Virus record (IMG/VR): IMGVR_UViG_3300044639_001412
Location: 1 to 25,837 of that record
DNA: 25,837 bases
Strand: one strand, 5' to 3'
Source: a virus
The notes under the pieces are model-generated. The model ran no database searches, was not told the origin of the DNA, and saw only the letters and a program-made list of their open reading frames with translations. The translations under genes and the position numbers were made by a program. Position 1 is the stretch's first letter; each line of letters begins with the position of its first letter. Shown here one piece after another: positions 4,961-12,255 of the stretch.

Positions 4961-4990
4961 TGCCTTATCGTTCCTTAGTGCTAAAATGTT
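4961..4990 (-). repeat. intergenic repeat, copy at 4961-4990 (related copy 5971-6000)
   Basis: TGCCTTATCGTTCC followed by GTGCTAAAATGTTA is repeated at 5971-6000 as TGCGTTATTGTTCC...GTGCTAAAATGTTA. A partial copy, TGCGTTATTGTTCC, lies at 3902-3915. All lie at gene ends on the minus strand and include or touch the stop codon of the upstream gene. They could be RNA processing or translation-coupling elements, or traces of gene shuffling. Confidence 0.6.
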
Positions 4991-5970: not shown

Positions 5971-6000
5971 TGCGTTATTGTTCCAATGTGCTAAAATGTT
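5971..6000 (-). repeat. intergenic repeat, second copy
   Basis: TGCGTTATTGTTCC plus GTGCTAAAATGTTA ends at the stop codon of the amidotransferase gene. It matches the copy at 4961-4990 in most positions, including the exact GTGCTAAAATGTTA part. It lies between the amidotransferase and the 78-aa gene. Confidence 0.6.
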
Positions 6001-6811
6001 AGTAATTAGTCAAGTGGTTGTTGTTATATTCGCTGTTATACTCTTGTAACTGCTCTATAATTTTTTTTAGGTCGTATGTATCAAACTCGTAAGAAAGTGT
6101 GTTTAAATCCTCCATAAAATAATAACTATCTATGTCCGTCCCTATTAAAACAGCTATTTTTTGTAAATTCTCGCTTGTTACATTCTCAAAGAAAAAATAA
6201 TCATCCTTTAAACTGCTGTATGTGGTTTTAACTGCTTTTGTTCCTTTACTTACCTTCTCGTTACCAAAGTATACAAAACTATTGCTTTGTTTGTAACTGT
6301 CGTTACTATACCAATTTAAGCCGTTCCAGTGTCCTAAATGTTCGTTTATTATTGTATCGCTGTCGTCTGAGTGTAAAAAGATTAGTTTTGAGTATCCTAT
6401 ATAATTACTAATTAACTCGCGTGTTGTGTCGTTACTTAAAAAATTATCAGGCAATTTTTTTAACATCTCGTTAAAATAAAACGTGTCGCTGTGCTTTTGG
6501 TCTCCTAAACCGCTTATGATTCCGTTGTGCACGAAGCCTAAATTATCGTTAACTTTAAAGGGGTGCAAATTAACATACTTGTCGTGTCCGCTTGTCGCGA
6601 TTCTAAAGTGTAGTACAATTTTATTAATTATTGGGTTTTTTCTTAGTTCTTTGTACTTGCTCAAAAACTCTTTATAATCATACGTTTTAAAAGTCTGCAT
6701 TTGTCCGCGCTCGTTCCATAACATGCCTGCTCCTTGGTCGTTATTATCCCATGAGTTTTTGATATGTTTATCTTTTATTTGTCCTTTGGTGTTTAAAATT
6801 GCTATGCACAT
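5999..6811 (-). CDS. class II glutamine amidotransferase (GATase II, Ntn-hydrolase)
   Basis: The protein (270 aa) is predicted to hydrolyse glutamine and release ammonia for a partner enzyme. Cys2 (MCIAIL) is the N-terminal nucleophile after Met removal. The class II pattern follows in order: HFRIATSG at residues 68-75 with Arg70, NLHPF at 81-85, LGFVHNGII at 91-99 with the Asn-Gly pair at 96-97, and SDT at 108-110. These match glutamine binding in GlmS/PurF-type domains. No synthase or isomerase domain follows; the C-terminal 100 residues are acidic and of unknown fold. The amidoligase gene lies directly upstream in the same operon, 42 bases away, and is the likely partner. Confidence 0.9.
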   Translation of the reverse strand: MCIAILNTKGQIKDKHIKNSWDNNDQGAGMLWNERGQMQTFKTYDYKEFLSKYKELRKNPIINKIVLHFRIATSGHDKYVNLHPFKVNDNLGFVHNGIISGLGDQKHSDTFYFNEMLKKLPDNFLSNDTTRELISNYIGYSKLIFLHSDDSDTIINEHLGHWNGLNWYSNDSYKQSNSFVYFGNEKVSKGTKAVKTTYSSLKDDYFFFENVTSENLQKIAVLIGTDIDSYYFMEDLNTLSYEFDTYDLKKIIEQLQEYNSEYNNNHLTNY

Positions 6812-6853
6812 GATATTATTTTTTAGGGGTTAATTAATTAGTTTAGTTTTGTT

Positions 6854-8128
6854 TTACGCTGCTTGGTTTACTTCTTTTGTTAGTGTTACATTCTCGAATT
6901 GTAAAGTGTATTTTATTACTCTATCAATTAAAGCGTTTAGTTTTTCGGGTGTGTTGTATACTTTTTTAATCAATGGAAGTAAAGTAGTATTTAGTTTAAA
7001 AAAAGCCTCTTTTATACATTCTGTTTGGTTGTTTAATATAAAATCCATTAACTGAGCGCGCCATATTAAAGTATCAAAATCAGGCACGGCGCTAATTATT
7101 CTATATTCGACGCGGTTGTCATGTATTTTAATACTTTGGTATTTTTCGTTATCGCTTAACAATTTCTCGTTACTCTTGCCTTTACTGTAGTTTTTATCAA
7201 TACGTCCATAGTATAGCGCATGAAACAATGGTGTATATCCTTTAAGGTTATTAAATAGTTCCGCGCCTGTTTTGCCTACCTCGCTTATGTTTATGTGTCC
7301 GCCGCATGATTTAGATTTGTTTGCGTTAATATGAGCTAATAACATACTATTTGCTTTTATGTCTTTCTTAATCTTTTTTACATCTAGCTCGTATGTTGGT
7401 GAGATTAGTTCAAAGCCGCTTGTATCGTCAAGGCTGCCGTCTCTCTCTTTTCTCCATAAAGGCGCGCTGTCTTTAAAATCGCTTATATATAAACTTTCTT
7501 TTACTTCTTGGTCCTCTTTCTCAATCTCGAAGCCTATAAAAAAGCGCGGTTTATCTGTAAATGTTTTTTTCTTGTAACTGCCGTCATGGTATCCGCTTAT
7601 ATAATCTTCGCTGTCATCTTCCTCCTCAGGGCTTAAATGATAACAACCGTCACTATCATGGTAGTATAAATCGTCTAGGTGGTGTAGTTCGTTGTCATCT
7701 TCACAATAGGCTAGGTCGTGGTAACTTCTTGCGTCATCATCGTAAAAATAGCCGTTACACTCGTCTAAACCTAACTTGTTAATTGCTTTATCACTGTATC
7801 GGTGCTCTCTACGTCCTATATAACATAGGCTTGTTTGTTCTTCTGTATATTCCTCGTAATATTCGCAAAAATACATATCATCATTATAGCAAATGTTTCC
7901 CTCCATGCTTGTACTATATTCTTCCTCAAAATAAAAATAGTTTTTATCCTCTATAGTTCTACTGTCTGCAATATGTTCAAAAGTGCAATAGTTATACTCT
8001 ATACTTTTTTTGATTTTTAGGAACGCCGCGAAGTCTTGCGCGTTATCTTTTAATACTTCCTTTGTAGTGTCGTTATCACTTATAAAGTTTATTATCTCTC
8101 TTGCTTGTGCAATTGTTAAATTTTCCAT
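6854..8128 (-). CDS. putative amidoligase (glutamine-synthetase-like fold) with a Cys/Tyr/Asp-rich N-terminal region
   Basis: The C-terminal half (about residues 195-345) carries the motifs of the putative amidoligase family related to glutamine synthetase and glutamate-cysteine ligase. They are GFEIE at 199-203, ERDGSL at 228-233 with GFELISP at 238-244, CGGHINIS at 275-282, and RVEYRI at 339-344. These are the expected metal/ATP-binding positions. The enzyme would use ATP to join a carboxylate to an amine or to ammonia. The N-terminal half includes an acidic region (about 78-170) with Cys at 80, 88, 102, 124, 142 and 162 and many Tyr and His. It could be a degenerate metal-binding or target-binding repeat. 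The neighbouring class II amidotransferase suggests ammonia is delivered to it. The substrate is unknown; protein, peptidoglycan and small-molecule targets are all possible. Confidence 0.85.
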   Translation of the reverse strand: MENLTIAQAREIINFISDNDTTKEVLKDNAQDFAAFLKIKKSIEYNYCTFEHIADSRTIEDKNYFYFEEEYSTSMEGNICYNDDMYFCEYYEEYTEEQTSLCYIGRREHRYSDKAINKLGLDECNGYFYDDDARSYHDLAYCEDDNELHHLDDLYYHDSDGCYHLSPEEEDDSEDYISGYHDGSYKKKTFTDKPRFFIGFEIEKEDQEVKESLYISDFKDSAPLWRKERDGSLDDTSGFELISPTYELDVKKIKKDIKANSMLLAHINANKSKSCGGHINISEVGKTGAELFNNLKGYTPLFHALYYGRIDKNYSKGKSNEKLLSDNEKYQSIKIHDNRVEYRIISAVPDFDTLIWRAQLMDFILNNQTECIKEAFFKLNTTLLPLIKKVYNTPEKLNALIDRVIKYTLQFENVTLTKEVNQAA

Positions 8129-10155: not shown

Positions 10156-10500
10156 ATGGTAAAGGAAGATAATTATAGGGTATTTACTAGTGTATTTATG
10201 ATGGAGGGAGGTGATTTGTATTCTGATACAGATACAGACCCTTTGATTACCGCCGAATTAGACGCTATATGTGTATTGGCTTATGATGATGATGGAAATC
10301 GTTTGCCTTATTCAATAAGTGTTAGTATCTTTGGACAGGAATGGGATAGGGATAATTACTTATTTGAGGATAAGCCTATTACTTATAGGAGATGGGACCA
10401 AAAGGTTGCTGTTCATGTAATAGTGTTTAATAGCGAGATAGATAAGAGATTGTATGATTGTAACGAACAAATAATAATAGAGAGATATGGAAATAAATAA
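10156..10500 (+). CDS. hypothetical acidic protein (114 aa)
   Basis: A 114-aa acidic protein beginning MVKEDNYRVFTSVFMMEGGD. An Asp-rich early loop (YSDTDTDPLITAELD) is followed by a strand-rich region (LPYSISVSIFG, VAVHVIVFNSE). The Asp cluster might bind metal, but no family is recognised. It overlaps the methyltransferase gene by 14 bases, suggesting coupled translation. Confidence 0.6.
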   Translation: MVKEDNYRVFTSVFMMEGGDLYSDTDTDPLITAELDAICVLAYDDDGNRLPYSISVSIFGQEWDRDNYLFEDKPITYRRWDQKVAVHVIVFNSEIDKRLYDCNEQIIIERYGNK

Positions 10501-11218
10501 GATATATAATGAAGATTGTTTAGTTACAATGTCTAAAATGAAAGATAAGTTTGTAGATTTAGTTGTTACATCTCCGCCTTACAATATGAGAACAAGAATA
10601 AGAAATGGAGAATATACTACAAGAGAAAAAAGCGAACATTTTAGTAAGAAATACAAGCATTTTGATGATGCGCTACCAATAAATGAATTTTACGAATTTC
10701 ACAGTAAAGTTTTAGAAGAATTATTAAGAGTTTCAAAGATTGTTTGTTATAACTTTCAAATAGTAACCGGCAGTAAAGAAGCTTTTTTTAAAATTATCGG
10801 AGATTTTAATAAAAACATAAAAGATATTATTATTTGGGATAAAGGAAATGGTCAGCCAGCTATGCACCCACAAGTATTAAATAGCTGTTATGAAATGGTT
10901 TTAATATTAGAGGATGATGAAAAATGTGGAAGGGTAATACAAAATGCTAAATTTAAAAGAGGGGAAATGAATAATATATTGAGGATTGGTAGAGGTAAAA
11001 AAGTGTCCGATATTCATGGAGCAATTTTCCCAGAACAATTACCATTTGAATTAATAAATTCTTTTTCTATTGAAGGAGGTTTAGTTTACGACCCATTTAT
11101 GGGAAGTGGAACTACTGCATTAGTGGCAAAGAAATTAGGAATGAATTACATTGGTAGTGAATTGAGTAATGAGTATTGTGATGTAATAAACAAAAGATTG
11201 AATAGTACACTTTTTTAA
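10487..11218 (+). CDS. DNA methyltransferase, beta-class (N4-cytosine or N6-adenine)
   Basis: The enzyme transfers a methyl group from S-adenosylmethionine to an exocyclic amino group in DNA. It has the beta-class order. The catalytic motif TSPPYN is at residues 28-33, after the typical IYNEDCLVTM start. The SAM-binding DPFMGSGTT (202-210), followed by YIGSELSNEYCDV, is near the C-terminus. FPEQLPFELI precedes it, as usual. SPPY is more often linked to N4-cytosine enzymes, but N6-adenine enzymes can share it. At 243 aa it is compact. No restriction endonuclease is next to it, so it is probably a solitary phage enzyme that protects the phage DNA from host restriction. Confidence 0.93.
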   Translation: MEINKIYNEDCLVTMSKMKDKFVDLVVTSPPYNMRTRIRNGEYTTREKSEHFSKKYKHFDDALPINEFYEFHSKVLEELLRVSKIVCYNFQIVTGSKEAFFKIIGDFNKNIKDIIIWDKGNGQPAMHPQVLNSCYEMVLILEDDEKCGRVIQNAKFKRGEMNNILRIGRGKKVSDIHGAIFPEQLPFELINSFSIEGGLVYDPFMGSGTTALVAKKLGMNYIGSELSNEYCDVINKRLNSTLF

Positions 11219-11571: not shown

Positions 11572-12255
11572 ATGAAAGAAAAACAAATTAGAAAAGTAAC
11601 CTTATCCTCAGAAGGATTGAAAGGTTTAATTATTGAAGGTACTGTAGAGACAGTAAAAGAGAATCGTATTGCTATTAATGGGTTTAAGGATACTGTTCGT
11701 CATCCTATACACTTAGATTTAGAAGATAAGATTAAGGATTTAAGATTCCATGCTATGAATATTGCGGGATTAATCACAGATTCGACACCTAAAAGTGAGA
11801 AGGCTAGTTTAATATCTAGCTGTAACGTATTATCTTTTGAGTTGAATGATGATTACTTTGTATTAAAAGTAGAGAGTCGTGTATTTGATACTAAGTTTAT
11901 TAAATTCTCTACTCCTAAAGTGGATAGCTCTGATGGATATGAGTTCTTTAGTGAAGTAAATCAATTATTAGGAGAGATTCTTGTTGAGGTTCATGCTTAC
12001 ACAAAAGGATTAAAGAAGATTACTAACGAGGAGATTACAGTTCGTTATATCCAACAAGGTAAAGATTCTAACATAGATATGGAAGCGTTTAAAGAGATGT
12101 CTAATGAAGATAAGAGAGATTATATGACTTCTGTATTAGAGAAGCTAGGATGTATCGTTATAACTAACGAGGATATGGATATTAGTAATATTGATGTTAC
12201 TGAAGAAATATTGATGTTGGAGGAGATTGCAGAACCAATTAAATTAAGAATTTAA
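11572..12255 (+). CDS. hypothetical protein (227 aa)
   Basis: A 227-aa acidic protein with a beta-rich N-terminal half (KVTLSSEGLKGLIIEGTVE, DDYFVLKVES) and an acidic C-terminus. No catalytic motif is seen. Its stop overlaps the start of the PD-(D/E)XK nuclease by one base (TAATG), so the two are probably made together. It might be an accessory to the nuclease, for example an annealing or binding protein, but this rests only on gene order. Confidence 0.6.
   Translation: MKEKQIRKVTLSSEGLKGLIIEGTVETVKENRIAINGFKDTVRHPIHLDLEDKIKDLRFHAMNIAGLITDSTPKSEKASLISSCNVLSFELNDDYFVLKVESRVFDTKFIKFSTPKVDSSDGYEFFSEVNQLLGEILVEVHAYTKGLKKITNEEITVRYIQQGKDSNIDMEAFKEMSNEDKRDYMTSVLEKLGCIVITNEDMDISNIDVTEEILMLEEIAEPIKLRI

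Follow-up and report, generated by a model that had tools for sequence, protein, structure and literature searches.

A two-gene amidoligase and glutamine amidotransferase system of a known kind in a phage genome fragment

A phage genome fragment from an IMG/VR record carries adjacent genes for a free-standing class II glutamine amidotransferase (GAT) and a divergent Amidoligase_2-type enzyme. The pair is genuine and well supported, and belongs to a kind that is already known. On balance, we favour the view that it is a glutamine-dependent amide-forming system, in which the GAT would deliver ammonia to the amidoligase, and the amidoligase would place a carboxamide on a carboxylate.

The whole stretch of DNA analysed, hereafter the window, is a 25.8-kb fragment. 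Both open reading frames that a preliminary description had picked out, of 270 and 424 aa on the minus strand, were found at the coordinates given below. The amidoligase gene is the upstream member, and the GAT gene lies 42 bp downstream of it. The features discussed are as follows.

5999..6811, minus strand: stand-alone class II (Ntn) glutamine amidotransferase (GAT), 270 aa, assigned by profile, fold and invariant residues
6854..8128, minus strand: divergent Amidoligase_2-type carboxylate-amine ligase, 424 aa, assigned by fold, profile and invariant residues
8171..8380, minus strand: short predicted lipoprotein, 69 aa, lipobox LTNC, directly upstream of the amidoligase gene
10487..11218, plus strand: N6/N4 DNA methylase (PF01555, E = 2e-34), on the strand opposite to the pair

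The gene pair and its phage

Genes for TerL, portal and major head protein all lie within the same window as the pair, so the label of phage that it had been given is correct. Distant matches to TerL come mainly from crAss-like phages and from Flavobacterium and Cellulophaga phages. Further, the window has a GC content of 32%, and most of its genes lack a Shine-Dalgarno sequence. Together, these features make a Bacteroidota host likely. The window also encodes a tRNA at 2409-2479 on the plus strand (Rfam RF00005, 53.6 bits), whose anticodon was not assignable by ARAGORN.

Both genes of the pair are under purifying selection, with dN/dS values of 0.03-0.12 against the two nearest contigs. Terminator and Rfam scans found no regulatory element near them.

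An AAC-N3/4-TWAAA element sits 20-23 nt 5′ of the start codon in ten window genes. Counting occurrences up to 40 nt upstream, it precedes 12 of 32 genes, compared with a mean of 2.7 and a maximum of 8 across 300 shuffles of the upstream sequences. Examples are the upstream regions of the genes at 4989, 5284, 5999, 6854, 8171 and 8844 on the minus strand, and at 12255, 20776 and 22859 on the plus strand. A leader containing CCCC precedes six minus-strand genes, and in four of them it reads AACCCCTWAAA. The element may act as a translation leader in place of a Shine-Dalgarno sequence.

Identity of the two enzymes

The open reading frame at 5999-6811 encodes a class II glutamine amidotransferase that stands alone. 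The conserved catalytic part of this enzyme covers approximately residues 1-187 and is followed by a variable, helical C-terminus; as first described, it has no fused synthase domain. The protein itself scores below the curated Pfam cut-offs (17.9 bits against 23 for GATase_4, and likewise sub-threshold for GATase_6). Among its relatives, 64 of 84 match GATase_4 at E ≤ 0.01, the best at 7.9e-11. A profile built from 25 relatives matches the glutaminase domain of GlmS (PDB 1xff) at E = 3e-5, with the R70-G97 region aligned to GlmS. Profile-profile comparison of the relatives with the GATs of phiEco32, LUZ24 and phiM6 returns a probability of 98.7% (E = 4.5e-16). An AlphaFold model of the window protein (pLDDT 86) matches GlmS, EgtC and PurF in Foldseek, with GlmS ranked above EgtC.

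The catalytic residues of the GAT are intact. C2, H68, R70, T73, H83, N96, G97 and D109 are invariant in 84/84 relatives, and each relative begins M1-C2, placing the N-terminal catalytic Cys after Met1. The equivalents of GlmS R73, T76, N98-G99 and D123 are R70, T73, N96-G97 and D109, again in 84/84. Profile, fold and invariant residues therefore uphold the earlier assignment to class II. All motifs from which the two proteins had originally been recognised are present: Cys2, HFR (68-70), HPF (83-85), HNG (95-97) and SDT (108-110) in the GAT, and GFEIE (199-203), DGSL (230-233), GFELISP (238-244), CGGHINIS (275-282) and RVEYRI (339-344) in the amidoligase. Because all 84 relatives of each protein keep the catalytic positions unchanged, these motifs are not chance occurrences.

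The open reading frame at 6854-8128 on the minus strand encodes a divergent enzyme of the Amidoligase_2 type, within the glutamine-synthetase/GCS superfamily. This protein has no usable match in Pfam, PHROGs or NCBIfam, and does not reach the curated cut-off of PF12224. The protein has apparently diverged too far for the model to recognise it, given the strong match in profile-profile comparison: hhalign of the 84-relative profile against seven phage PF12224-family proteins (from phiEco32, LUZ24, phiM6 and others) gives a probability of 98.6% (E = 1.4e-15), while an unrelated profile used as a control gives 0.15%. PF12224 is also matched by 23 of the 84 relatives at E ≤ 0.01, the best at 4.9e-9.

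The top PDB matches of the amidoligase model (pLDDT 79) in Foldseek are YbdK, glutamine synthetases and Dop, with YbdK the best. All seven matches at E ≤ 0.001 are of the YbdK family or glutamine synthetases, followed by Dop at 1.0e-3; TM-scores are low (~0.3), so that the comparison supports superfamily and topology, not atomic detail. Membership of the amidoligase/glutamine-synthetase superfamily had been set beforehand as a refutation test for the 424-aa protein, and both hhalign and Foldseek place it there.

Eight amidoligase residues (E201, E203, D230, E240, H278, R309, E341 and R343) are identical in all 84 relatives, and align one-to-one with invariant columns of the phage PF12224 reference set. 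The GxExE, DxS..E, H, R, E-x-R catalytic pattern of Amidoligase_2 is thus complete in the window protein. It resides in a glutamine-synthetase-like catalytic domain at residues ~194-420. Residues ~1-190 (window 7559-8128) form a repeat domain rich in Tyr, Asp and Glu, with short beta units predicted. Some relatives (L021, L024, L156 and L159) carry CxxC zinc-ribbon-like repeats at the N-terminus, whereas the window subfamily lacks the cysteine pairs. The N-terminus appears to be a degenerate zinc-ribbon-like repeat domain, which perhaps binds the target or a partner. Y180, which lies in the linker leading to the catalytic domain, is conserved in 83/84 relatives.

Linkage across relatives and neighbouring genes

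Relatives were drawn from four viral-contig scans, using the best 80 matches per query, and their loci were grouped into 100 clusters with no common 100-mer in the pair genes. The linkage counts consequently describe the window subfamily, not all amidoligases. The two genes had been expected to travel together, with relatives not carrying only one of them, and they do so: among the matches listed, 92 of the 100 clusters have both, always on the same strand and with the amidoligase first in 85. The intergenic gap in these listed clusters is mostly between a 10-bp overlap and 70 bp. Seven of the eight remaining clusters end before a partner gene could be visible, and the sole real exception among the matches listed is L098, a 122-aa amidoligase fragment. 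Protein distances of amidoligase and GAT are correlated across 75 pairs (Mantel r = 0.68, 0/999 permutations), as co-inheritance predicts.

Tight coupling is not universal, since the pair genes are 1-3.5 kb apart in some clades. At L005, the large gap exists because a GIY-YIG homing-endonuclease-like gene (L005:9111-9743) has been inserted between amidoligase and GAT. In six clusters (L067, L078, L153, L167, L170 and L184), the GAT is followed by another amidoligase homologue, distinct from the first.

The preliminary description had also pointed to a neighbouring lipoprotein gene as making an envelope target plausible. The gene is present, but as a pointer to the envelope it is weak, because homologues occur only in the three nearest contigs (L002, L003 and L006, with overlapping loci of the same contigs). 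On the same grounds, it was rejected as a functional partner, and it is probably not an obligate part of the pair system. Short, non-homologous lipoprotein-like reading frames lie directly upstream of the amidoligase at L012:6308-6505, L146:3120-3284 and L148:4580-4753. Upstream lipobox enrichment (5/82 versus 17/1092, p = 0.015) is marginal, and we do not rely on it because the test was post hoc and at least one match (L067) is spurious.

Class II GAT domains occur as Gat-QueC in phage 7-deazaguanine DNA modification. This precedent, along with the N6/N4 DNA methylase gene in the window, would fit a route of DNA base hypermodification, in which the amide chemistry would act on a modified nucleotide. 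However, the methylase gene is not part of the pair and is read from the opposite strand. Further, neither QueC nor a thymidylate-synthase-type enzyme was found in any of 40 pair-carrying records, several of which are fragments. This absence disfavours DNA hypermodification, which we regard as very improbable.

Known systems and candidate reactions

The amidoligase-GAT pair is already known in phages, as the preliminary description had stated. Amidoligase (PF12224) and GATase (PF13522) are annotated in the OM43 phages MEP401 and MEP402, and occur in >30 metagenomic viral genomes (PMC10580990). According to that paper, Iyer et al. 2009 proposed for phiEco32 a role in modifying the cell wall and in superinfection exclusion; the paper's own authors describe the functions of the pair as still to be explored (PMC10580990). 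In MEP401/402, as in the window, the two genes have the same order and strand, with no further adjoining amide-bond gene, and they overlap by 10 bp. The GATs of these phages are 44-46% identical to that of the window over residues 1-176. They differ in their Zobellviridae lineage and Methylophilales host, and their amidoligase, distantly similar to that of the window, is longer (546-548 aa) and scores at about the Pfam cut-off. In both phages the pair adjoins primase, helicase and polymerase, i.e. the replication region.

The cassettes of phiEco32, LUZ24, UFV-P2, phiM6 and Vibrio 1.208.B, of the lineage described by Iyer et al. 2009, likewise combine Amidoligase_2 with a class II GAT, and their catalytic residues match those of the window. 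Beyond these two genes, the longer cassettes contain COOH-NH2 ligase, ATP-grasp ligase and gamma-glutamyl cyclotransferase genes in various combinations; the window and its close relatives have none of these additional genes. Within a phage collection, 286 records match one phage amidoligase of the amidoligase-GAT type. The literature searched yielded no biochemical study of a phage amidoligase-GAT.

Two further systems offer partial parallels. EgtA and EgtC of ergothioneine synthesis are likewise a GCS-type amidoligase and a class II GAT-like Ntn hydrolase, but EgtC cleaves a gamma-glutamyl bond by hydrolysis without supplying ammonia, the pathway context is different, and the match is at the level of fold only. 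MurT and GatD belong to other families, GatD being a class I-like GAT and MurT a Mur ligase. In Staphylococcus aureus, they resemble the phage pair in having separate glutaminase and ATP-dependent ligase subunits that amidate a carboxylate (PMC3267633).

Phage-ZRK32, which encodes a GAT, an amidoligase, a glutathione synthase and a cyclotransferase, has been proposed to help host nitrogen metabolism (PMC10945688). The window pair might similarly be auxiliary metabolic genes, part of a set for host nitrogen and amino-acid metabolism that raises amino-acid supply. The growth effects described there come from the phage as a whole and are not resolved to individual genes (PMC10945688). The pair belongs to a divergent enzyme family and not to host-like glutamine synthetase, and a pattern scan of bacterial contigs, which detects close matches only, found no bacterial homologue of the amidoligase subfamily. 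We consider this explanation improbable.

In the amide-forming system that we favour, the pair would be expressed from the non-structural, probably early, gene block of the phage. The N-terminal Cys2 of the GAT would hydrolyse glutamine and release ammonia. The amidoligase, using ATP and metal ions at a predicted E201/E203/E240/H278/E341 site, would convert a carboxylate into an activated acyl phosphate. Ammonia, supplied within a putative complex of the two proteins, would then attack the acyl phosphate to yield a carboxamide. The acceptor would most likely be a small acid, a host peptide or an envelope component, altered during infection. In favour of this reading stand the close linkage and correlated distances of the two genes, their invariant catalytic residues, the fold and profile matches, the low dN/dS, and the replication-region setting of the pair in MEP401/402.

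Some findings count against ammonia feeding. In 16/84 relatives (the L087-L108 group and MW202828, L027:5001-6218), the GAT is fused to a C-terminal gamma-glutamyl cyclotransferase domain (GGACT, PF06094), for which ammonia feeding has no use. The gamma-glutamyl hydrolase EgtC stands among the GAT fold matches beside the ammonia donor GlmS, and in some clades, as noted, the two genes are not closely spaced. The fusions make a gamma-glutamyl cycle of making and breaking a live rival. Here, the amidoligase would add a glutamyl group or other amino acid to an amine or peptide (cf. GCS, YbdK), and the GAT-like Ntn hydrolase would remove or transfer the gamma-glutamyl group (cf. EgtC after EgtA), a job in which the cyclotransferase domain would have a part in some phages. 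The steps would be sequential, with no channelling of ammonia.

The best structural match of the amidoligase, the carboxylate-amine ligase YbdK, is consistent with such a cycle. So are stand-alone GGACT genes near the pair in L020 (by coordinates, ~1 kb downstream of the GAT) and L063 (directly upstream of the amidoligase), and in the cassettes of phiM6, Vibrio 1.208.B, LUZ24 and StenR_269. However, GGACT, found in 15 of 50 records searched, is absent from the window and its closest long relatives (52-69 kb records), and the higher rank of GlmS over EgtC also speaks against the cycle. We hold it to be possible, though doubtful.

RimK ATP-grasp genes were found in 2/50 records, and COOH-NH2 ligase (PF14395) only in phiEco32 and LUZ24 among the records searched. 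The window, a 25.8-kb fragment, contains no gene for COOH-NH2 ligase, ATP-grasp or gamma-glutamyl cyclotransferase. Together with the distribution of GGACT, these results identify the window pair as the minimal two-gene form.

More speculatively, and we think it rather unlikely, the widespread two-gene form could be self-sufficient. The phage would use it early in infection to add a gamma-glutamyl or amide mark to a host envelope peptide or another host component, or to take such a mark away, and the target would be recognised by the repeat-rich N-terminal domain of the ligase. If true, such a system would represent a new phage-encoded host-modification chemistry. Conserved in ~90 diverse phage contigs, the two-gene form is the most compact version of the system, and hence the easiest to express and assay. 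This makes the minimal pair a good system for answering the question of its substrate, the solution of which would account for a common and costly phage investment.
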